This document shows positions 28,245-39,821 of a DNA stretch of 64,000 nt, one piece after another (position 1 is the stretch's first letter; each line of letters starts with the position of its first letter). The DNA comes from Methanomassiliicoccales archaeon. GTDB lineage: Archaea; Thermoplasmatota; Thermoplasmata; Methanomassiliicoccales; UBA472. The stretch is from contig CP058896.1 in NCBI GenBank assembly GCA_013415865.1, positions 1,283,957 through 1,347,956 on the forward strand, given 5' to 3'. The notes beneath the pieces are model-generated. The model was given only the letters and a program-made list of their open reading frames with translations. It did no database searches and was not told the DNA's origin. The position numbers and the translations under genes are program-made.

Positions 28245-28804
28245 CAATAATGGTCGGTCTCCCTGTCGAACCTGCGGCCTATCGACCTGACGAAAGCGTC
28301 GTTGTCAGAGGTGTCGAATAATATCCTGGTCATCCTCCTTTTCTTGCCAGTGGTCGAAGAGGTTCCCTTGAGCTCCAGCAATATAAGGTCCTTGGTCCTG
28401 CCATTGACATATATGGTGTTGTTGCCTATGAAGTGCAGGCCGTAGCTCCAGGGACCGTTCTTTACCCTCGTCATTGAAATTATATCGCTCAGGTCTATCC
28501 TGTTCCTGTAATACCATCCCTGTCTCAGCACGATGTAGGTCTCATGGACCTCATGTGATGTCAGCAAGGGAGAGAGGCCGAAAACCACAGTGATCGGCAC
28601 AAGTATCGAGAATATTATTAAAAAAGCCTCCAACAGCTCCTCCTGCGGCACGAGAAGGAACATGAGACACCCCACGAGGACATTCATAAGGATGAGGAAC
28701 AAAAATATCGATCTTATTGCCTTTTTTTCATAAGGGAACCTCTGCCTTATCATGTGGAGGACCTTCTCAGGAAAGGAAAACAAGATCATTGACCAGAAGG
28801 TCAC
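28244..28804 (-). CDS. Two-helix membrane protein with PH-like cytosolic domain
   Basis: A 186-residue protein with two membrane segments (about residues 30-50 and 60-80) and a C-terminal beta-rich region (VHETYIVLRQGWYYRNRIDLSDII, YGLHFIGNNTIYVNG, RILFDTSDNDAFVRSI) like bacterial PH or YcxB-like domains. The start GTG 28804 overlaps the ilvC stop (GTGA), and its end overlaps the cyclophilin-like gene (TGATG), so it is co-transcribed with ilvC. No link to isoleucine/valine synthesis is known. Confidence 0.65.
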   Translation of the reverse strand: MTFWSMILFSFPEKVLHMIRQRFPYEKKAIRSIFLFLILMNVLVGCLMFLLVPQEELLEAFLIIFSILVPITVVFGLSPLLTSHEVHETYIVLRQGWYYRNRIDLSDIISMTRVKNGPWSYGLHFIGNNTIYVNGRTKDLILLELKGTSSTTGKKRRMTRILFDTSDNDAFVRSIGRRFDRETDHY

Positions 28805-29898
28805 TTCTTCGCTGATGTCCTTTTTCTGGTCTTGGCGGCCGACCTCTTTGTCCCAGGCTTTTTCACCGGCTTTTTCTTAGGGGCGGCCTCGGCGGCCTTC
28901 TTTTCAGCGGGCGGCTGGAACTCGAACAGGGAGCGTATGTTCTTGCCAACGACCTCGATCTCGCTCTCGGCCTCCTCCTTCTCAAGCTTCTGGAGCTTCT
29001 TCATCCCGGACTTCGCGTCCTTCATCCACTCCTTGGCGAACTTACCTTCCTGTATCTCTTTGAGCATCAGGGCCATCTCCTTTCGGGTCTCATCTGTGAT
29101 CAGCCTTGACCTCCTGGAAAGCCCTCCGTACTCCGCTGTGTTGGACACATTGGTCCACATGTGCATCATACCGCCCCTCTGGAAGAGGTCAACGATGAGC
29201 TTCAGCTCGTGAAGGCACTCGAAATATGCGATCTCGGGCTGGTAGCCGTTCTTGACCAACGTCTCAAAGCCCGCCTCGACCAGCGCAGTGACCCCTCCGC
29301 AAAGCACTGCCTGTTCGCCGAAAAGGTCCGACGTCGCCTCTTCGGTAAAGGTCGTCTCGATCACTCCCGCCTTGGTCGCACCGATCCCCTTGGCGAGCGC
29401 CAACGCGATCTCCTTCGCCTTCCCAGTATGGTCATGCTCTACCGCTATCAGTGCTGGGACGCCGAACCCTTCGACAAATGTCTGCCTCACCATGGGGCCT
29501 GGCGATTTCGGTGCCATCATTATTACATCCACGTTCTTTGGGGGCTTGATCTCTTTAAAGACGATGCTGAAGCCGTGTGCGAAATCGAGCGCGGCGCCTG
29601 GCTTGAGGTTCGGGGCGATCTCGGTCTTATAGACCTCTCCCTGTACCTCATCTGGTAGAAGGATCATCACTACGTCCGCATCCTTCACGGCATCGGCCAC
29701 CGCAGCGACCTTCATGCCGTTCTTCTTAGCCTCATCCCATGACCTGCCGCCCTTGCGGAGACCGACGACAACATCCAGGCCAGAATCCTTAAGGCACATC
29801 GATTGCGCCTTTCCCTGGCTTCCGAAACCGATTACTGCGATCTTCTTGCCTTTCAGGACCTTAAGGTCAGCGTCAGAATCGTGGTATATCTTTGCCAT
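28801..29898 (-). CDS. ilvC: Ketol-acid reductoisomerase with basic C-terminal tail
   Basis: Class I enzyme of valine, leucine and isoleucine synthesis: NADPH site IAVIGFGSQGKAQ, HGFSIVF, the MMAPKSPGP region, E in TTFTEEATSDLFGEQAVLCGG and the C-terminal LFQRGGMMHMWTNVSNTAEYG. The core ends near residue 325 (LFEFQPP). A further ~37 residues are Lys/Pro/Ala-rich (KKKPVKK, TKRSAAKTRKRTSAKK), like histone H1 tails. Normal family members lack this. It follows two ilvB genes in one operon. Confidence 0.93.
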   Translation of the reverse strand: MAKIYHDSDADLKVLKGKKIAVIGFGSQGKAQSMCLKDSGLDVVVGLRKGGRSWDEAKKNGMKVAAVADAVKDADVVMILLPDEVQGEVYKTEIAPNLKPGAALDFAHGFSIVFKEIKPPKNVDVIMMAPKSPGPMVRQTFVEGFGVPALIAVEHDHTGKAKEIALALAKGIGATKAGVIETTFTEEATSDLFGEQAVLCGGVTALVEAGFETLVKNGYQPEIAYFECLHELKLIVDLFQRGGMMHMWTNVSNTAEYGGLSRRSRLITDETRKEMALMLKEIQEGKFAKEWMKDAKSGMKKLQKLEKEEAESEIEVVGKNIRSLFEFQPPAEKKAAEAAPKKKPVKKPGTKRSAAKTRKRTSAKK

Positions 29899-29980: not shown

Positions 29981-31708
29981 TCAAGCCCCGGCGATCTCCA
30001 TGGTGATGTCCTTGTCCAATAGTTTTTCATGAGGCCTGCCGAACCGGCATCTTTTTCCATGTATGACCTCTTTGGACGACCTTCCTCCAGGAAGCATCGG
30101 CAGGATGTCCTCCTCGACATCCACAACGATGTCCAGCAGGAATGGCACATCGGACCTTAACGCCTTCTCGAACGCCTCCGCCAGCTCCGATGGCCTCTCC
30201 ACCCTCAGGGCGTCTGCCCCATACGACCGGGCGAGCTTGACGAAGTCTGGGTTCCTTTCAAGATTGGTCCCAGAATATCGGCCGTCGTTCAACAGCTTCT
30301 GCCACTGTCTCACCATGCCGAGCCAGCTGTTATTGAGAAGACATATCACCACAGGAAGGTCCTCGGACATCGCCGTCGCGAACTCCTTTGAGACCATTTG
30401 GAGCGACCCGTCGCCGGCTATGTCGACCACCTGCTTATCACGGTGGGCGTACTTTACGCCCAGAGATGCTGGGAACCCGAAGCCCATGGTCCCCATCCCT
30501 CCAGATGAGATGAAATGCCCAGGCGTCCTCATCCTCAGGAAGTGAGCTGCCCACATCTGGTTCTGCCCCACCTCCGTGCAGACATATGCATCGTCCGAAA
30601 GCGCCTTCCTGAGCTCCAGCATCACCTTCTGTGGTTTGATGGGCATCTCGTCTATGTCCATCTCACAATCGCAGATCTGGCGAAGGTGGACCATCCTTTT
30701 GCACCACTCGCTGCCCGCCTTTGCCCTCGAGAGTCCTTTTATCAGGAGCTGGAGGGCCTTCCGCGCATCGCCCACGATCCGCACCTTCGTTCTCTTGTTC
30801 TTGCCCGCCTCCATAGGGTCGATGTCGATATGGATTATCTTGGTCGATTCGGGAAGGTCGGTCGGAAGTCCTGTGGACCTGTCGCTGAACCGCGACCCGA
30901 CCACGAGCATGACGTCGCAGCTCTCATATGCTCTCCTCGCCACCTCTCTGCCGTGCATGCCCAACATCCCCATGGCCAATGGGTGGTCCTCTGGGATGAT
31001 GCCCTTGCCCATCATCGTGGTCGCCACCGGGGCCATGAGCATCTCGGCCAGTTTGCGGACCTCTTCGCCGGCATGAGACCAGATGGCCCCCCCTCCGACG
31101 AGCATCATGGGCCGCTCCGCATCCCGTAGCAGTTTCACCGCTTCCAACACCCTCGACATATCCTCGACGGGACAAGGGGCGTGGAACTCCTCATAAAGGG
31201 CCTCATCGGCGATCTGTTTCCATAGCACGTCCACAGGCAGATCGATGTGCACTGGGCCCATGCGACCGGTCGTAGCGATACCCCATCCTTTCTTGATGGC
31301 CTCCGGTATCCTGTTGGGATCAAGCACCCTGAAACTGTGTTTTGTTATGGGCATCATCAGGGAGAAGATGTCCGCTTCTTGGAACGCGTTCTCGCCCAGC
31401 ATCTGTGTGGAGACCTGACCAGTGATGACCATCATCGGCGAGGAATCCGCATAGGCGGTGGCCACGCCTGTAACAAGGTTCGTCGCACCAGGTCCTGATG
31501 TTGACATGCATATCCCAGGCCTGCCAGTGGAACGAGCGTACCCATCGGCCATGTGGGCGGCCCCCTGCTCATGGCGGACAAGGACATGGTGGATCGAAGA
31601 GTCCAAAAGGTCATCATATATCGGTAGCGTGTTTGCGCCTGGGTAACCGAATATCACATCTGCTCCCTGACCTTCCAGCAATTTTAGGACTGCCTTCGAT
31701 CCTCTCAT
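29981..31708 (-). CDS. ilvB: Acetolactate synthase large subunit (second copy)
   Basis: Thiamine-diphosphate enzyme that joins pyruvates or pyruvate and 2-oxobutyrate. Visible: RHEQGAAHMADGYAR with catalytic Glu, SGPGATNLVTG, and the ThDP/metal motif GDGSLQMVSKEFATAMSEDLPVVICLLNN (GDGS to NN). The 575 residues match a large subunit. It is close to the copy directly upstream (60-base gap), so the two arose by tandem duplication. No small regulatory subunit (IlvN) is next to them. ilvC follows 82 bases downstream. Confidence 0.93.
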   Translation of the reverse strand: MRGSKAVLKLLEGQGADVIFGYPGANTLPIYDDLLDSSIHHVLVRHEQGAAHMADGYARSTGRPGICMSTSGPGATNLVTGVATAYADSSPMMVITGQVSTQMLGENAFQEADIFSLMMPITKHSFRVLDPNRIPEAIKKGWGIATTGRMGPVHIDLPVDVLWKQIADEALYEEFHAPCPVEDMSRVLEAVKLLRDAERPMMLVGGGAIWSHAGEEVRKLAEMLMAPVATTMMGKGIIPEDHPLAMGMLGMHGREVARRAYESCDVMLVVGSRFSDRSTGLPTDLPESTKIIHIDIDPMEAGKNKRTKVRIVGDARKALQLLIKGLSRAKAGSEWCKRMVHLRQICDCEMDIDEMPIKPQKVMLELRKALSDDAYVCTEVGQNQMWAAHFLRMRTPGHFISSGGMGTMGFGFPASLGVKYAHRDKQVVDIAGDGSLQMVSKEFATAMSEDLPVVICLLNNSWLGMVRQWQKLLNDGRYSGTNLERNPDFVKLARSYGADALRVERPSELAEAFEKALRSDVPFLLDIVVDVEEDILPMLPGGRSSKEVIHGKRCRFGRPHEKLLDKDITMEIAGA

Positions 31709-31768: not shown

Positions 31769-33490
31769 TCACGCGCCTGATATGTTGGGGGTCCAATCGA
31801 ACTTATCGATATCGCCGTTCTGCGCCCATCTGCACCTTCCACGGATGACGGCCTTTGAGGACTGCCCTCCTGGCTGCATCGGAAGTATGTCCTCTTCCGG
31901 GTCTGTATGGATATCGATCAAGAACGGGACGTCCGACGAGAACGCCCTCTTGAATGCCTCAGCCAGCTCCGATGGCCTCTCGACCTTCACCGCCGCCGCG
32001 CCATAGGCCTCGGCCAGTTTGACGAAGTCCGGGTTCCTCTGGAGGTTCGTTCCAGAGTATCTCTTGTCGGCGAACAGTTTCTGCCATTGCTTCACCATGC
32101 CTAGCCAGTTATTGTTAAGGAGGCACACCACCACCGGGAGGTCTTCATTGACCGCGGTCGCGAACTCCTGCACGACCATCTGCAGAGAGCCATCCCCTGC
32201 TATATCGACCACCTGTTTGTCCCTGTGCGCGTACTTGACCCCTATCGATGCTGGGAACCCGAAGCCCATCGTCCCGAGCCCACCCGATGTTATGAAATGG
32301 CGGGGCGTCCTCATGCGGAGGAGATGTGCCGCCCACATCTGGTTCTGCCCCACCTCCGTGCAGACATACGCGTCGTCCGCAAGGGCCTTTCGCAGCTCGC
32401 ATATGACCTTCTGCGGTTTGATGGGAGGCTCGCTGATGTCCATGTCGCAGTCGCACATCTCCCGAAGGCGTTTCATGCGCATGGACCACTCGCTGTCACC
32501 CTTAGATTTTCCAAGACCTTTGATGATCTGCTGGAGCGCCCGCTTCGCATCGCCCACGATCCTGACCCTTGTCCTGCTGTTCTTGCCTGCCTCCATGGGG
32601 TCTATGTCTATGTGTATGATCTTGATTGATTCGGGAAGCTCGGACGGCAGCCCTGAAGACCTGTCGCTGAACCTGGCTCCCACCGCGACCATGACGTCGC
32701 ACTCGAGGAAGGCCTTTCTAGCGATCTCCCTTCCATGCATGCCGAGCATGCCCATGGCCAATGGGTGGTCCTCTGGAATGATGCCTTTTCCCATAAGGGT
32801 CGTAGACACTGGTGCCATGAGCATCTCCGCCAACTTGAGCACCTCAGGGGCTGCATTCGCCCACATGGCCCCCCCTCCGACCAGCATCATAGGCCTCTCG
32901 GCCTCCTTTAGTATCTTAACGGCCTCGAGCACACCTGAGAGGTCCTCATACGGTGCGGGCACAGGGAACTCCTCATCGAGAAGATCGTCGTCCAGGTCTG
33001 ATTTTAAAATATCAACAGGCAGGTCCACATGTACCGGCCCCATCCTGCCGTTCAGAGCGATGTTCCATCCTCGCTTTATGGCCTCTGGAAGGTGCTTGGG
33101 GTCCAGCACCCTGAAGTTATGTTTTGTGATGGGCATCATCAGGGAGAAGATGTCAGCCTCCTGGAAGGCGTTGTTGCCGATCATCGAGGATGATACCTGT
33201 CCTGTCAGCACCATCATCGGCGAGGAGTCGGCGTATGCGGTCGCCACACCTGTGACAAGATTCGTAGCCCCTGGCCCAGATGTCGCGATACAGACCCCAG
33301 GGCGACCTGTGGCCCGGGCATATCCATCTGCCATATGCGCTGCGCATTGCTCATGCCTTACCAGCACATGGTGGATATCAGAGCTGAGGAGGTCATCATA
33401 GATCGGAAGGGTGACCCCTCCTGGATAACCAAACATCACATCGACGCCTTGTCTTTCGAGCAGATCCAGAACAGCCTTGGAGCCTTTCAT
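31769..33490 (-). CDS. ilvB: Acetolactate synthase large subunit (first copy)
   Basis: The 573-residue paralogue is the first gene of the branched-chain operon. ThDP motifs are the same as in the second copy (RHEQCAAHMADGYAR, AGDGSLQMV). The residue after EQ is Cys in place of Gly. Conserved GMLGMHGRE, FSDRS and PGGQSS regions are shared. Substrate choice (pyruvate against 2-oxobutyrate) could differ between the two. The long plus-strand ORF opposite (32019-33401) is a codon-bias shadow. A hairpin lies 29-56 bases upstream of the start. Confidence 0.93.
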   Translation of the reverse strand: MKGSKAVLDLLERQGVDVMFGYPGGVTLPIYDDLLSSDIHHVLVRHEQCAAHMADGYARATGRPGVCIATSGPGATNLVTGVATAYADSSPMMVLTGQVSSSMIGNNAFQEADIFSLMMPITKHNFRVLDPKHLPEAIKRGWNIALNGRMGPVHVDLPVDILKSDLDDDLLDEEFPVPAPYEDLSGVLEAVKILKEAERPMMLVGGGAMWANAAPEVLKLAEMLMAPVSTTLMGKGIIPEDHPLAMGMLGMHGREIARKAFLECDVMVAVGARFSDRSSGLPSELPESIKIIHIDIDPMEAGKNSRTRVRIVGDAKRALQQIIKGLGKSKGDSEWSMRMKRLREMCDCDMDISEPPIKPQKVICELRKALADDAYVCTEVGQNQMWAAHLLRMRTPRHFITSGGLGTMGFGFPASIGVKYAHRDKQVVDIAGDGSLQMVVQEFATAVNEDLPVVVCLLNNNWLGMVKQWQKLFADKRYSGTNLQRNPDFVKLAEAYGAAAVKVERPSELAEAFKRAFSSDVPFLIDIHTDPEEDILPMQPGGQSSKAVIRGRCRWAQNGDIDKFDWTPNISGA

Positions 33491-34125: not shown

Positions 34126-35400
34126 ATGGACACCAAGACCATCTTGGAAATGGGAGCGAACAGTGCCCTGATGGACGACCCTCATGTCAAGAAGGTGTGG
34201 AGGCTCGTCAATGAGGGACCGAACCTCTTTAAGAAAGGACCGGATGAACTGGCTTCGATAAGATTGGATATCATCAGAAGCTCGTTGAGCTTTTTTTCTG
34301 AGAGGAGCAGGTTCTACTCCGAACTATATGAAAGATTGGAGATAGACCCGTCCAGAGCCAGGGTTGCCGACATCGCAAAACTTGCCATACCTTCCGACCT
34401 TCTTCGCGGTGAGGGACAGCGGCCGATGCTCATAGATGGTGTGGAACAAGGAGGCGAGACATTCCAGTCGTCCGGGACGACCGGTAAGGACCCCGTGAGG
34501 ATATACAGAAGCCCGCTGGACCTGGCCTTGATGTTAAAGGCGAACACCGACCTCTTCGAATATGTGTATGGCAGCACGCTAAAGGATGGTGAGGGGATCG
34601 CACTGTTCATGGCCGCACCTGAGCTGAGGTACAAATTGAGCTTCGTTGCCTTCGTCCATATGACATTAGAGAATAAGGGCATCGAGCTCCTCTATGGAAT
34701 GGACCTGGAGAACAAGGACCAGGCCGGAACCCCCTGGCAGAAGCTCACCCCTAACAAGGACAACCTGCTCAAGTTCTTGAAGAGCAAAAAAGAACCGAAG
34801 CTCTTCTTCACCGCCCCCGCGGGCGTACATCTGCTTGGCAACAGGTTCGATGAAATGGGAATATTGAAGAGGATGATGTTCAAAATGGTCTCTGGGGCCC
34901 CTCCCATAAGGCTTGGAAAAGGCGGTGTCATCGTCACGGGGGGAGGATCCAAGGGCTTCGTGGACCTGCCTCCGTATGAAAGGATAGTATCGAGATCGAG
35001 GGAACATTTCAAGGCCCGAGGCTTTGACGACATGGCGGTCGATGTGCCATTCATGGATGTGTTGGGCATGACAGAGACGTTGACGGCCCTCATCGATCGG
35101 TATGGCGTGATCGATAAGGTGCCCCACCCCCTGTCCGAGGCATTCTTGCTGGACCCGGTCACTTTCGACCCTATAAACGAGGAGGGAAAAGATGGGATAC
35201 TCGCGATCTTCAATCCGTTCGTCACCTCGTGGATGGAGTGCTTCTATCCTGGGGATCTGATGTCCTTCAAAAAGTCCGGCTGTTATTATGGTAAAGAGTT
35301 CGTCTACAAAAGACGGCTCACCGTTGAGGAGGGATGGGAGATGCAGAGGGCGTGCGGGGGGACACTCGAGGAGATGATGGCCAAGGGGGGAAAGGGCTGA
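34126..35400 (+). CDS. LuxE-like acyl-protein synthetase
   Basis: A 424-residue adenylate-forming enzyme of the LuxE family: TFQSSGTTGKDPVRIYRS is the AMP-binding P-loop-like motif, then IVTGGGSKG, and DVLGMTETLTALIDRYG. LuxE activates an acyl group and loads it on a Cys for LuxC in bacterial fatty-acid reductase. A C-terminal segment (KKSGCYYGKEFVYKRR) contains a Cys that could be the acyl acceptor. The next gene encodes LuxC, so the pair is convincing. No luciferase (LuxAB) is present. The start ATG 34126 follows GAGGCTGGG. Confidence 0.85.
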   Translation: MDTKTILEMGANSALMDDPHVKKVWRLVNEGPNLFKKGPDELASIRLDIIRSSLSFFSERSRFYSELYERLEIDPSRARVADIAKLAIPSDLLRGEGQRPMLIDGVEQGGETFQSSGTTGKDPVRIYRSPLDLALMLKANTDLFEYVYGSTLKDGEGIALFMAAPELRYKLSFVAFVHMTLENKGIELLYGMDLENKDQAGTPWQKLTPNKDNLLKFLKSKKEPKLFFTAPAGVHLLGNRFDEMGILKRMMFKMVSGAPPIRLGKGGVIVTGGGSKGFVDLPPYERIVSRSREHFKARGFDDMAVDVPFMDVLGMTETLTALIDRYGVIDKVPHPLSEAFLLDPVTFDPINEEGKDGILAIFNPFVTSWMECFYPGDLMSFKKSGCYYGKEFVYKRRLTVEEGWEMQRACGGTLEEMMAKGGKG

Positions 35401-35435
35401 TAAGGCCATATCATTCAGGACAAAGGTTGCCGACC

Positions 35436-36857
35436 GTGGTCAGAACGTCCGGGGAGACCGAGGTCGAGGAGCTCACTGCTGAGGCGATCGACCATCTGTG
35501 TGAGAATGCAGGGACCGTACAGAACCGTGTTTCCTCGATCCCTTTATCAAAACGGCTGGAGGTCATTGGGTCGATAGGCATGGTCTGGAAACGGAAGCTC
35601 GAGGAGGGAAAGGTCGTCAACATCCGCGACAAGATGGTGTCAAGGACAGGGTACTCAAAGGCCCTGGTCGACCTAGAGATGCAGTTCGTCCTGTCCGTTC
35701 TCGACCCCGAGAGCATAAGGAGGAACCTGGAAGCATCCCTCCCTGGGGGTTCCGCCTCCCTCGACGGTTTTAAATTGATGGCCGACGAGGAAGGATATAT
35801 GAGCGTGCCGGCGGGACCCGTGTTAATAATATCTTCTGGCAATTCTATCGTCCCTACCCTCATCCCGACTGTGCTATCCCTGGTCACAGGGAACCTGACC
35901 TTCCTAAAGCCGTCGATATCGAACTACGAGGGGGTGCTCGAGGTCCTAAGATGCATCGAGGAGGTCCCCCCCTCCGAGGCGAGGGACGCCATCAGGGACG
36001 CCCTTGTCATATCCTATTTTTCGCACGATAGCAGAGCGCTCGATCACGCTCTTTCAGAGGCCAAGATGGGCGTCATCAATTTTTGGGGAGGAGAGCCGGC
36101 AAGAACAACGGTCGCCTCAAAGGTCGTTCTGAACCCCAATCGTCCGAGGTTCTTTGCGAACGGACCGATGACCGGCGTGGCCATAATATCAGCGTCCATG
36201 GCCGGTCCAGATACGGCCGATGGTCTGGCAAAGAACATCGTCCTGTACGACCAGCAGCTCTGTTCCTCGCCTACCTCTGCGGTTTTCATAGGCGATCACG
36301 GTTCGGCAGTGGCGTTCTCGAAACTATTGAGCTCGAGACTGGACGAGATCGGCAGCAGGCATCCGATGACGCTCCGTGAAGGAAGCATGTTCGTCCTGCA
36401 GAACGCCAGGAGGATGCTCCAGCTAAAAGGGGCGATTGTGAGCGGAGGAAGGTCAGAACAGAACCAGTGGACCGTCGTCGTGTCAAAAGGCAGGAGCATG
36501 CTCGAGGATATGGTCTCTCAATTCCCGGGCATGAACATTTATGGCCGGAGAAGGTTCATCGAGATCGTGTCGATGCCATCCTATGACGAGGCCATCGAGT
36601 GGATCATAGGTTTGCCATCCACAAAGGCATACTCAGGCATAGACAAGGTACAAACAGTAGGACTGGCCGTCCCAAGGGAGGATGTGATAAAGGTGTCGAC
36701 GATGGCCGCGAGGGCGGGTGTCTACAGGATCATACCGATCTCGGACATGTTCATGAGATCGGCCCTGGAACCGTATGATGGGATATCCCTCGCATCTCTT
36801 TTCCTGCAGACCAGCTATCGTCGTGGTAAAGACCTATGGAAGGGGTCGATCGATTGA
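35436..36857 (+). CDS. LuxC-like acyl-CoA/acyl-protein reductase
   Basis: The LuxC family reduces an activated acyl group to an aldehyde with NADPH. This protein shows EEGYMSVPAGPVLIISSGNS-type NADP-binding entry, LTFLKPSISNYE, INFWGGEPARTTVAS and the catalytic-Cys stretch VLYDQQLCSSPTSAVF. I use GTG 35436 (about 473 residues), with AAAGG 9 nt upstream; the frame stays open from 35334 inside luxE. CTG overlapping the luxE stop is another possibility. The end overlaps the epimerase start. Confidence 0.85.
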   Translation: MVRTSGETEVEELTAEAIDHLCENAGTVQNRVSSIPLSKRLEVIGSIGMVWKRKLEEGKVVNIRDKMVSRTGYSKALVDLEMQFVLSVLDPESIRRNLEASLPGGSASLDGFKLMADEEGYMSVPAGPVLIISSGNSIVPTLIPTVLSLVTGNLTFLKPSISNYEGVLEVLRCIEEVPPSEARDAIRDALVISYFSHDSRALDHALSEAKMGVINFWGGEPARTTVASKVVLNPNRPRFFANGPMTGVAIISASMAGPDTADGLAKNIVLYDQQLCSSPTSAVFIGDHGSAVAFSKLLSSRLDEIGSRHPMTLREGSMFVLQNARRMLQLKGAIVSGGRSEQNQWTVVVSKGRSMLEDMVSQFPGMNIYGRRRFIEIVSMPSYDEAIEWIIGLPSTKAYSGIDKVQTVGLAVPREDVIKVSTMAARAGVYRIIPISDMFMRSALEPYDGISLASLFLQTSYRRGKDLWKGSID

Positions 36858-37843
36858 AGGTCTTGGTCACAGGAGCTTCCGGATTCCTTGGAAGGTATGT
36901 GGTGGACGAGCTATTGAGGGAAGGCCATGACGTATTTGGAGGGGTCAGGGCGACCAGCAATATATCGCACCTCAAGGAGAAAGGGGTAGGGCTGGTACCC
37001 TTCGACCTGGTGGACAAAGACATCATGTCCTCGGCGGTCAAAGGTATGGATGCCGTCATCCATCTGGCGGCATATTACACCTTCAGCGGGAAGAAGGAGC
37101 TTTACCAGCGGCTGAACGTCGACGCGACAAAAGAGCTCGCGCGACTATGCCTTGAGAACGGCATCTCGAGGCTCGTCTATTGCAGCTCGACCGAGGCCAT
37201 GGGACCTGTTGACGGGATCGCGGACGAGACCGCGCCTTTGAGGCCAGTATATGAATATGGAAGATCGAAGGCCATGGCGGAGGCAGCCCTGTCCGAGCTC
37301 GCATCCAAAGGTCTGGACCATGTGGTCCTCAGACCCTCTGGAATATATGGGCCTCACAATGTCGACGACGTCTCATATTGGTTCATAACCTCATACGGTC
37401 GAAGACTTGCGACCAAATTCATCATTGGGACAGGGAAGAACAGGATACAGTTCGTACATGTCGCTGACGTTGCCAGGGCCTTCTCCCAGGCGCTATCGAG
37501 CAAGGCCGCCAAAGGGAGAACTTACATAATCAGCGAGGGAAGGTCATATACATATGAGGAGGTCTATGCCATACTTGGAGAGATAACTGGCATTCCTCCC
37601 CCGAGGCTGCATCTGCCGCCGTTGTTGGCCAAGGTCATGATAGCTCCCATTCAATCTTTCAATTCAATTATCGGCAGGAAGGATTTTATGTACAGGATAT
37701 CCACGGTCGACTCCGTGACCTGTGACCGGGCCTATTCTATAGACAGGGCCAGAAAGGAGCTTGGATATGAGCCAAGGTATGATCTGAGAAAAGGGCTTCG
37801 GGAAACCTATGAATGGTATGTGGAGAACGGTCTTATCCAATGA
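36854..37843 (+). CDS. NAD(P)-dependent epimerase/dehydratase (extended SDR)
   Basis: The start region KVLVTGASGFLGRYVV holds the Rossmann GxxGxxG, with a later YEYGRSKAMAE (Y-x3-K catalytic pair) and SSTEAMGP for the serine. The 3-beta-hydroxysteroid-dehydrogenase/OleD-like shape (LRPSGIYGP, VHVADVARA) fits an NADP reductase acting on a keto or hydroxy lipid. TTG 36854 overlaps the luxC stop (TTGA) and has GGAAGGGG 7-8 nt upstream; ATG 36836 is the alternative. Being coupled to LuxC, it may act on the aldehyde or its product. Confidence 0.8.
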   Translation: MKVLVTGASGFLGRYVVDELLREGHDVFGGVRATSNISHLKEKGVGLVPFDLVDKDIMSSAVKGMDAVIHLAAYYTFSGKKELYQRLNVDATKELARLCLENGISRLVYCSSTEAMGPVDGIADETAPLRPVYEYGRSKAMAEAALSELASKGLDHVVLRPSGIYGPHNVDDVSYWFITSYGRRLATKFIIGTGKNRIQFVHVADVARAFSQALSSKAAKGRTYIISEGRSYTYEEVYAILGEITGIPPPRLHLPPLLAKVMIAPIQSFNSIIGRKDFMYRISTVDSVTCDRAYSIDRARKELGYEPRYDLRKGLRETYEWYVENGLIQ

Positions 37844-37896
37844 TCTGATAGGCCGCTCTAAAAAAAGTTAAATCGACCTCGGTGCTTGCGGGCTCC

Positions 37897-38889
37897 ATGG
37901 AGAACAGCTCACTTCAATACGGTCAGGCAAAGGGCGTATGGGAGAAGGCGAGGAACATCTTCCGCATCAGTTATACATTGGTGTTCGTCTTTGCGGCATT
38001 GGCCGGGGTGGCCTTTGCATGGACCGAGGTCCAAGAATGGACGATCGGCGTTCTGATAATCGTTGATGTATTCTTCCTAGCACTGTTCGTCAACATTTCC
38101 AATGATTATTTCGATCATAAGAGCGGGGCCGATAAGAACCGATGGACGAAATATGATGCAAAGCTCGAGAAAGAGCTCAAGGAGATGTTCAATGAGAAGT
38201 TCTACTGGTCTGGTAACGCCTTCGACAGAGGGATCGTCACGGACCGGACAGGGCAGATAATAATCGCCACATTGGGCGTCATAGCGGTACTTATTGCAAT
38301 ACCCATCGTCATATATGGTGGTTGGATAGTCGTCCTCATGGGCGGGATAGCGTTCTTCCTGAGCTACTACTACACCGCACCGCCTCTCAACCTGGGAGCC
38401 CGCGGCTTTGGTGAGCTGGATGTCTTCCTTTCGTTCACTTTCTTGGCCTTGTTCCCCTACATTGTATTGGTTGGGGATGTATCCCTAGAGGCCGTGGTCC
38501 TTGCTGTAACGGTCGGCATCGTCGTGATGCTCTTACGGGTCGTGGACCAGATGTTCGGGTATGAGGCACATAAGGAAGCAGGTGAAAAGGATTTCAGCGT
38601 CAGGTTCGGCCTGGAAGGGGCCTCAAAGGTCGTTCTATATTGCCTCACGGTCATGTATGCACTGGACCTTGCGCTGGTGCTCTTCTTCGGGGTCGGATAT
38701 GCGATATTGTTCTTGACGATACCATTGGCCATAGGGATGTCAAAGATCTTCGCTAACAGAGAGGACAGGTTCAGGTGGCTGAGGCCTATCCCCTTGATGT
38801 TGAAGACCGCGATGGGACAGATGCTGCTCCTGACATTCTCTCAGCTATTGATGTCGTGGATCAACGAACTGTCTTGGCACCCTCTATGA
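37897..38889 (+). CDS. UbiA-family prenyltransferase
   Basis: A membrane protein with eight or nine hydrophobic segments and the two Asp motifs of UbiA: NISNDYFDHKSGAD and VVDQMFGYEAHKEAGEKDFS. These bind a prenyl diphosphate through Mg2+. The acceptor might be a quinone precursor (MenA), glycerol lipid or the product of the Lux-type genes upstream. The start ATG 37897 has a TATA-like AAAAAAAGTTAAAT about 30 bases upstream, so it probably has its own promoter and a leaderless transcript. GTG 37882 is an alternative. Confidence 0.85.
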   Translation: MENSSLQYGQAKGVWEKARNIFRISYTLVFVFAALAGVAFAWTEVQEWTIGVLIIVDVFFLALFVNISNDYFDHKSGADKNRWTKYDAKLEKELKEMFNEKFYWSGNAFDRGIVTDRTGQIIIATLGVIAVLIAIPIVIYGGWIVVLMGGIAFFLSYYYTAPPLNLGARGFGELDVFLSFTFLALFPYIVLVGDVSLEAVVLAVTVGIVVMLLRVVDQMFGYEAHKEAGEKDFSVRFGLEGASKVVLYCLTVMYALDLALVLFFGVGYAILFLTIPLAIGMSKIFANREDRFRWLRPIPLMLKTAMGQMLLLTFSQLLMSWINELSWHPL

Positions 38890-38891
38890 GG

Positions 38892-39821
38892 TCACTCCTT
38901 TGAGAACGCGAAGCGCTTGGACATCTGCAATATCGCGCTCACGTTCCCTCTGGTGATGAGGGAATACTCCCTTACGGCGTTGAAACCGCATTCCTTGCAG
39001 GAAGCCGTACCTCTCATGGGGCAGCCGTAATGGTGCGAGCGGTCAGGAAGGACGAACATCGATACCCAGTCCCTGCATTTCCTCTCATAGTCCTCAATAA
39101 GCAGCTCCTTCAGGGCCCTGTCCGAGTTCAGGATAGGGAGACCTTCCCTCTTCAAAGCGATGGCCTCGGCCACCAATCGCCTCTTTTCTTCAAGGGTGAG
39201 CTTTTGTCCATTGGGAGGAGGGGTGAGGAAGTTCAACATGATACCATTTATCTTCTTGCTCTTGGCCACGACCTCCACCGTCTCTCTGAGATGGTCCTTG
39301 TTCTCCCTCATCAAGACCATGTTGGCGAATATGTTTGGATGGTCGACCTTTTCCAAATTCGCCATCAGCTTGTCGAAGACACCTTCACATCTTATCCTGT
39401 CATGGACCTCTTTCGGCCCGTCCAGGGAGACCGAGATCACATCGCTGTTGGTGTAGATCGCATTGGTGCCATTGGTCGTGTAGCCCGTCACGAAATATCC
39501 TATGGACCTCCCAGCCTCGATCAGGTCCTCCAGGGTCTTCCCACCGTCCTTCCACATGGTCGGCTCTCCGCCTTCGAAGAAAAGGATGCGGGCCCCTTTC
39601 TCGAATCCTGACCTCATCTCTTCGACCGCTTCTTCATAGTTGAGCCTCATACCCCCAGGAAGGGCATCCTGGTTCCCTCGAATGCTGCAATGTTTGCATC
39701 TGAGGTTGCACTCGAAATTGATGATCATGGTATTTACCAGAGGTCTTTTCCTCCCAAAAAGGCTTGAGACGAACCATCTGGCATAATACATGTACTGGCT
39801 GAGCGAGATCAGGTTGGCCAT
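38892..39821 (-). CDS. Radical SAM protein with SPASM-like C-terminal cysteines
   Basis: The CNLRCKHC motif (C-x3-C-x2-C), FFEGGEPTMW (GGEP) and TTNGTN, VSLDGPKE are typical of the radical-SAM barrel. Near the end, KCRDW and GCPMRGTASCKECG suggest a further iron-sulfur site as in SPASM or twitch domains. About 309 residues. Substrate is unknown. It converges on the UbiA gene (2 bases between stops), so it shares no promoter but may belong to the same pathway. A TATA-like ATTAATATG lies about 28 bases before the start. Confidence 0.85.
   Translation of the reverse strand: MANLISLSQYMYYARWFVSSLFGRKRPLVNTMIINFECNLRCKHCSIRGNQDALPGGMRLNYEEAVEEMRSGFEKGARILFFEGGEPTMWKDGGKTLEDLIEAGRSIGYFVTGYTTNGTNAIYTNSDVISVSLDGPKEVHDRIRCEGVFDKLMANLEKVDHPNIFANMVLMRENKDHLRETVEVVAKSKKINGIMLNFLTPPPNGQKLTLEEKRRLVAEAIALKREGLPILNSDRALKELLIEDYERKCRDWVSMFVLPDRSHHYGCPMRGTASCKECGFNAVREYSLITRGNVSAILQMSKRFAFSKE

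Follow-up and report, generated by a model that had tools for sequence, protein, structure and literature searches.

A 64,000-nucleotide stretch of a Methanomassiliicoccales archaeon genome (GenBank assembly GCA_013415865.1, contig CP058896.1, positions 1,283,957 to 1,347,956; hereafter the window) contains three consecutive genes encoding a LuxE-like acyl-protein synthetase, a LuxC acyl reductase and an extended short-chain dehydrogenase/reductase (SDR). We found that these genes are one unit that occurs in several archaeal phyla amid unrelated neighbours, and we regard it as a new form, found in archaea, of the LuxE/LuxC reductase. With a probability of roughly 0.6, we propose that the trio reduces a free carboxylic acid, at the cost of ATP, to an aldehyde and then to an alcohol, the acid being left open. 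Fatty acids are not what archaea of these phyla build membranes from, and the substrate of the trio is therefore a real question. The conserved unit comprises all predicted parts of a LuxE/LuxC acyl relay together with a dehydrogenase, and three proteins suffice for testing it.

The LuxE, LuxC and SDR genes are linked across archaea

All five open reading frames of the region, the trio and two neighbours, were confirmed at their coordinates. The LuxE-like gene lies at 34126..35400 and the LuxC gene at 35334..36857, both on the plus strand; LuxC has three candidate starts (35334, 35352 or 35427). The SDR open reading frame spans 36836-37843 on the same strand, and its likely start, a TTG at 36854, overlaps the LuxC stop by 4 bases.

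A contig scan with two short peptide patterns, which on account of those patterns covers close relatives only, returned 38 LuxE loci, all archaeal or titled 'archaeon'. The closest named LuxE-like relative was from a Methanomassiliicoccaceae metagenome-assembled genome (73%). LuxC followed LuxE at 35 of the 38 loci; two of the others (L024, L048) are contig ends, and at L045 LuxE is in two overlapping pieces with no LuxC match. The SDR followed at 33 loci, a count that includes a 32-residue piece at a contig end (L020) and a gene in two pieces (L034); it was missing from the same three loci, from L032 (a contig end) and from L027. Genes flanking the trio differed between lineages, and no fourth constant neighbour was seen across lineages among the flanking genes listed. 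The identities of LuxE, LuxC and SDR co-varied (r 0.82-0.88 over 325 pairs, uncorrected for shared ancestry). In Thermoproteota, LuxE matched 28 of 398 genomes at E ≤ 0.001. The match reached E ≤ 1e-170 in 25 of these, and the trio was complete at 12 of the 14 loci fetched from those 25 (LuxC in two pieces in L101).

The source genome is a single contig of 1,818,080 bases with one LuxC gene and one methyl-coenzyme M reductase (MCR) alpha gene. No protein in this one genome matched the luciferase family PF00296 at E ≤ 0.001. The original prediction, made from the sequence alone, had described LuxE and LuxC genes with a coupled SDR and without luciferase in an archaeon; profiles, solved relatives and conserved cysteines support the two lux genes, the SDR follows them at most loci, and the absence of luciferase holds.

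In the class of genome G162, LuxE matches were found in 6 of 115 genomes, 5 of them clear. A second arrangement, seen elsewhere at the level of the class, is a LuxC-ligase fusion with a LuxE-like gene adjoining (L006, 3-3636; L007, 82-3776 on the minus strand). The fusion proteins are 818 and 868 amino acids long, with a LuxC match in the first half and an adenylating-enzyme-like SGGTTG motif in the second.

Sequence and fold of the three proteins

The predicted identity of LuxC is secure. The protein matched PF05893 at E 1.3e-31 (110.4 bits against a curated cut-off of 21), and its sole match among solved sequences at E ≤ 0.001 was the LuxC chain 7xc6_A (E 3.4e-18). The same chain was the top fold match of the predicted model (mean predicted local distance difference test score, pLDDT, 89.3), with 18% identity in the structural alignment. 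The acyl-accepting cysteine of the YDQQxC motif (C310, in YDQQLCSSPT) was present in 28 of 28 LuxC members and aligns directly with the cysteine of YDQQAC in 7xc6_A; a study of a luminous Vibrio places the LuxC acyl site at Cys286 in YDQQACFSTQ and the LuxE acyl site at Cys364 (PMC8301110). The window LuxC did not reach the cut-off of the luminescence LuxC model NF052251 (48 bits against 750). It scored just under the cut-off of a general aldehyde-dehydrogenase model (21.4 of 23 bits), as expected because LuxC belongs to that superfamily, and its sole solved match and top fold match speak against a grouping with aldehyde dehydrogenases of other function, which the original prediction had named as grounds for rejecting it.

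The first gene of the trio, judged by profile, fold and conserved residues, appears to be a real but distant LuxE. Pfam matched LuxC, the SDR and the two neighbouring proteins directly and gave no family for the window LuxE-like protein, and PF04443 (LuxE) had no match in the whole source genome at E ≤ 0.001. The same family matched 2 of 29 LuxE-like members at E ≤ 1 (best 9.9e-6; its curated cut-off is 24.9 bits). With a profile built from the 29 members, the best solved-sequence match was Photobacterium LuxE (7xc6_E, E 0.0015) and the next a phenylacetate-CoA ligase (E 0.013). The predicted model (mean pLDDT 84.4) has the fold of an adenylating enzyme, with structure matches to PaaK (Z 25.2), 2-hydroxyisobutyryl-CoA ligase (Z 24.9) and the phenazine protein EhpF (Z 20.4). 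Of the 425 residues of PaaK, only 7-330 align, with residues 31-401 of the 424 in the model, and the second, C-terminal domain is therefore absent from the model; Photobacterium LuxE, at 373 residues, is likewise too short for it. An SSGTT loop and C410 were present in 29 of 29 members. We equated C410 with the LuxE acyl site, Cys364 in P. phosphoreum, by its position after an RRL motif, the profile alignment ending just before it, and the last 15 residues of the model, C410 included, are of low confidence. LuxE-family domains in ammonia-oxidising archaea are mentioned in PMC11442133.

The SDR, a putative aldehyde reductase, matched PF01370 at E 7.9e-43. Its best solved relative was 3wj7 over the full length (E 7.9e-47; next 2.3e-33), which we take to be the aliphatic aldehyde reductase Gox2253 of Gluconobacter oxydans. 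The glycine-rich loop (G13, G16, G19), the YxxxK pair (Y141, K145), S117 and R38 were found in 26 of 26 members, and R38 suggests, by a rule of thumb for this family, the use of NADPH. The protein missed the cut-offs for the HpnA hopanoid epimerase (159.9 against 367.65) and for OleD (128.8 against 580).

Distribution and loss of the trio

LuxE matched 36 of 147 Methanomassiliicoccales genomes, 27 at E ≤ 4e-155 and the other nine weakly. In the family of the window it was present in 15 of 22 genomes, and LuxC was found in none of the seven LuxE-less ones. Five of these seven trio-less sites were read, and three retained remains between an acetolactate synthase gene and UbiA: an SDR tail with stops (G306), the beginning of LuxE, containing a stop and running into an SDR tail (G301), and the second half of an SDR with stops (G070). 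Nothing recognisable lay between the same genes in G305 and G310. The three remnant sites belong to three genus groups, so the trio, if ancestral in the family, was lost at least three times. One further genome (G296) has LuxE and LuxC at the site, without SDR, UbiA or radical S-adenosylmethionine (SAM) genes there, and with no UbiA match in the whole genome.

A tree of 28 joined archaeal rows broadly tracked taxonomy. The Thermoplasmatota fell on one side of a branch with support 99 and the named Brockarchaeota fell together; Thermoproteota and Nitrososphaerota, by submitters' titles, need two changes each. This tree and the remnants fit an old residence of the trio in archaea with much loss, and transfers may also have occurred. 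No bacterial relative of this LuxE was found in the contig scan (close relatives only), in plasmids or in viral contigs, a small scope.

Proposed reaction and its substrate

We propose that LuxE would use ATP to adenylate a free carboxylic acid and would load the acyl group onto its own C-terminal cysteine, C410. The group would then be handed to C310 of LuxC and reduced to an aldehyde with a nicotinamide cofactor, and the SDR, probably with NADPH, would reduce the aldehyde to an alcohol. The families and conserved residues point to an acid activated with ATP, an acyl group passed from one cysteine to the other and an aldehyde as the first reduced product; the position of the SDR and its nearest solved relative point to the last reduction. 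The sequences supply the families, the folds, the strictly conserved acyl cysteines and SDR motif, the gene order and the joint loss. From these we infer that a relay operates, that it runs towards reduction, which cofactors it uses and that the SDR takes the last step.

Several observations weigh against this reading. The LuxE profile matched solved sequences weakly (E 0.0015 for LuxE and 0.013 for a phenylacetate-CoA ligase), and 7xc6_E was absent among the structure matches listed for the LuxE-like model, although this absence excludes nothing. LuxE stands without LuxC in two Thermoproteota genomes (G504 and G406, loci L088 and L097), neither of which has a LuxC elsewhere. LuxE and LuxC lack an SDR at two loci, L027 and L075, and the best SDR matches elsewhere in those genomes are not close (143 and 88 bits, where trio members score 448-572); the last reduction step is therefore not obligatory.

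The LuxE gene that stands without LuxC or SDR (L088, 6416-7678; L097, 7366-8637) adjoins glutaredoxin-like and ferredoxin:thioredoxin-reductase-like genes. Such genes also follow the trio in Methanomethylicia; we rejected them as partners of the trio, as they follow LuxE even where LuxC and SDR are gone.

Possibly, though with clearly lower probability, the acid is a small or aromatic one, and the trio serves as an ATP-spending acid reductase for biosynthesis or detoxification. The best structure matches of the LuxE model act on aromatic or small acids (PaaK, 2-hydroxyisobutyryl-CoA ligase, EhpF), and patchy presence with repeated loss would suit an accessory trait. However, a common fold is uninformative on substrate, and the nearest sequence relative is a fatty-acid enzyme. 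A more doubtful idea is that the trio is an old archaeal acid-to-alcohol reductase whose substrate is a hydrophobic carboxylic acid, for example an isoprenoid one, and that it forms or recycles a membrane alcohol to which lipid surveys have assigned no genes. If so, LuxE-LuxC would serve anaerobes as an acid reductase of general use, and bacterial luminescence would be one application of it. Butanetriol and pentanetriol lipids, described from the order, were considered as well, with no evidence for a link to the trio.

The UbiA and radical-SAM genes lie outside the unit

The trio is followed in the window by a UbiA-family, MenA-like prenyltransferase gene (37882..38889, plus strand; PF01040, E 1.1e-17) and, convergent with it, a radical-SAM gene (38892..39821, minus strand; PF04055, E 4.6e-16). 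The original prediction placed all five genes in one pathway, from an activated acyl group to an aldehyde or alcohol that UbiA, helped by the radical-SAM protein, would convert to a prenylated or ether-type lipid. The first part, from acid to aldehyde and probably alcohol, agrees with our reading of the trio; the lipid pathway is unsupported, and we think it improbable. The five genes do stand together in the family of the window, with UbiA following the trio at 10 of the 38 loci and radical SAM at 8 (L034 and L037 end inside UbiA), and a paper on myxobacterial ether-lipid operons offers an analogy in which acyl-reductase, acyl-CoA synthetase and epimerase-family proteins are joined (PMC9131029). 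However, the myxobacterial reductase domains are FAR1-like as annotated there, not LuxC. All loci with UbiA or radical SAM beside the trio are Methanomassiliicoccales-type records, and most trio loci, 23 of the 33 with all three genes, have no adjoining UbiA (one of these, L020, is a contig end). Conservation of gene order in relatives, proposed as a check on the original prediction, holds for LuxE, LuxC and SDR, whereas UbiA and radical SAM vary.

All 7 genomes of the window's family that lack the trio have kept both genes, and the pair was present at 5 of 5 trio-less sites read (L070-L074). A further 9 loci, drawn from several families in the order (L102-L110; one cut by a contig end), all have the two genes adjacent and convergent. 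Because they are kept in the trio-less relatives and paired convergently at these further loci, we judge UbiA and radical SAM to be neighbours outside the trio unit. The gap between the SDR and the GTG of UbiA is 38 bases, and a run of A and a TATA-like TTAAAT (37868..37873, plus strand) lie upstream, the latter at a distance of 24-29 bases from a downstream ATG (37897). Similar AT-rich boxes precede UbiA in seven relatives, two of them without the trio (all by eye, unscored), and the TTAAAT box suggests a promoter of UbiA's own, a further point against the lipid pathway. The gene set is thereby corrected to the trio, with the pair apart.

A 2014 genome paper places a ubiA of the order, possibly this gene, together with ubiE in the synthesis of liposoluble electron transporters (PMC4153887). 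The pair is a possible candidate for a membrane electron-carrier step, and as a separate, older trait of Methanomassiliicoccales it is worth its own study.

Upstream of the trio, two acetolactate-synthase-like large subunits lie in tandem on the minus strand (29981-31708 and 31769-33490), adjoined by a ketol-acid reductoisomerase-like gene (28801-29898).

The trio and methanogenesis

The trio is patchy in the order and is not tied to methanogenesis. A role in methyl-reducing methanogenesis or in coenzyme M/B synthesis had been suggested by the first LuxE matches, and 25 of 39 carrier genomes have MCR alpha, several of the misses being incomplete methanogen bins; the idea was dropped after the MCR counts and the Thermoproteota matches. 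The 4 Brockarchaeota, the Odinarchaeia and the 3 Nitrososphaeria-type carrier genomes showed no MCR, and 120 of the 147 genomes in the methanogenic order gave no strong match to LuxE. This distribution largely refutes the idea and leaves it very unlikely. In Brockarchaeota, a gene for the 2-phosphosulpholactate phosphatase ComB (PF04029) comes directly after the SDR gene on the same strand (L025, 13788-14480; same cluster in L038, L040 and L046). No MCR alpha was found in these genomes, and the coenzyme M link through this ComB-like gene is only a weak lead.

Comparison with known systems

A literature search that covered few subscription papers found no description of an archaeal LuxE-LuxC-SDR cassette. 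The myxobacterial elb ether-lipid operon, likened here by description only, resembles the trio in bringing acyl activation, acyl reduction and an NAD-dependent epimerase-family protein into one operon; it differs in a reductase annotated as FAR1-like and in additional acyl carrier protein and acyltransferase domains (PMC9131029).

The SDR has its best full-length solved relative in 3wj7, and aldehyde use by the archaeal enzyme is putative. Adenylating enzymes that lack a C-terminal domain, EhpF among them (3hgu, 3l2k), share the adenylating fold over almost the whole LuxE-like protein (Z 20.4), but EhpF has 13-14% identity in the structural alignment and belongs to a different pathway. EhpF works with a partner reductase.

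Among the closest known counterparts is the LuxC-LuxE fatty acid reductase of luminous bacteria, as in Photobacterium phosphoreum (7xc6), in which both proteins are related to those of the trio, the acyl cysteines are kept and the genes are adjacent. In contrast to that system, the archaeal trio is distant (18% for LuxC), lacks luciferase and has an SDR after LuxC, and compared with luminous bacteria its host is an archaeon in which a fatty-acid substrate is not expected.

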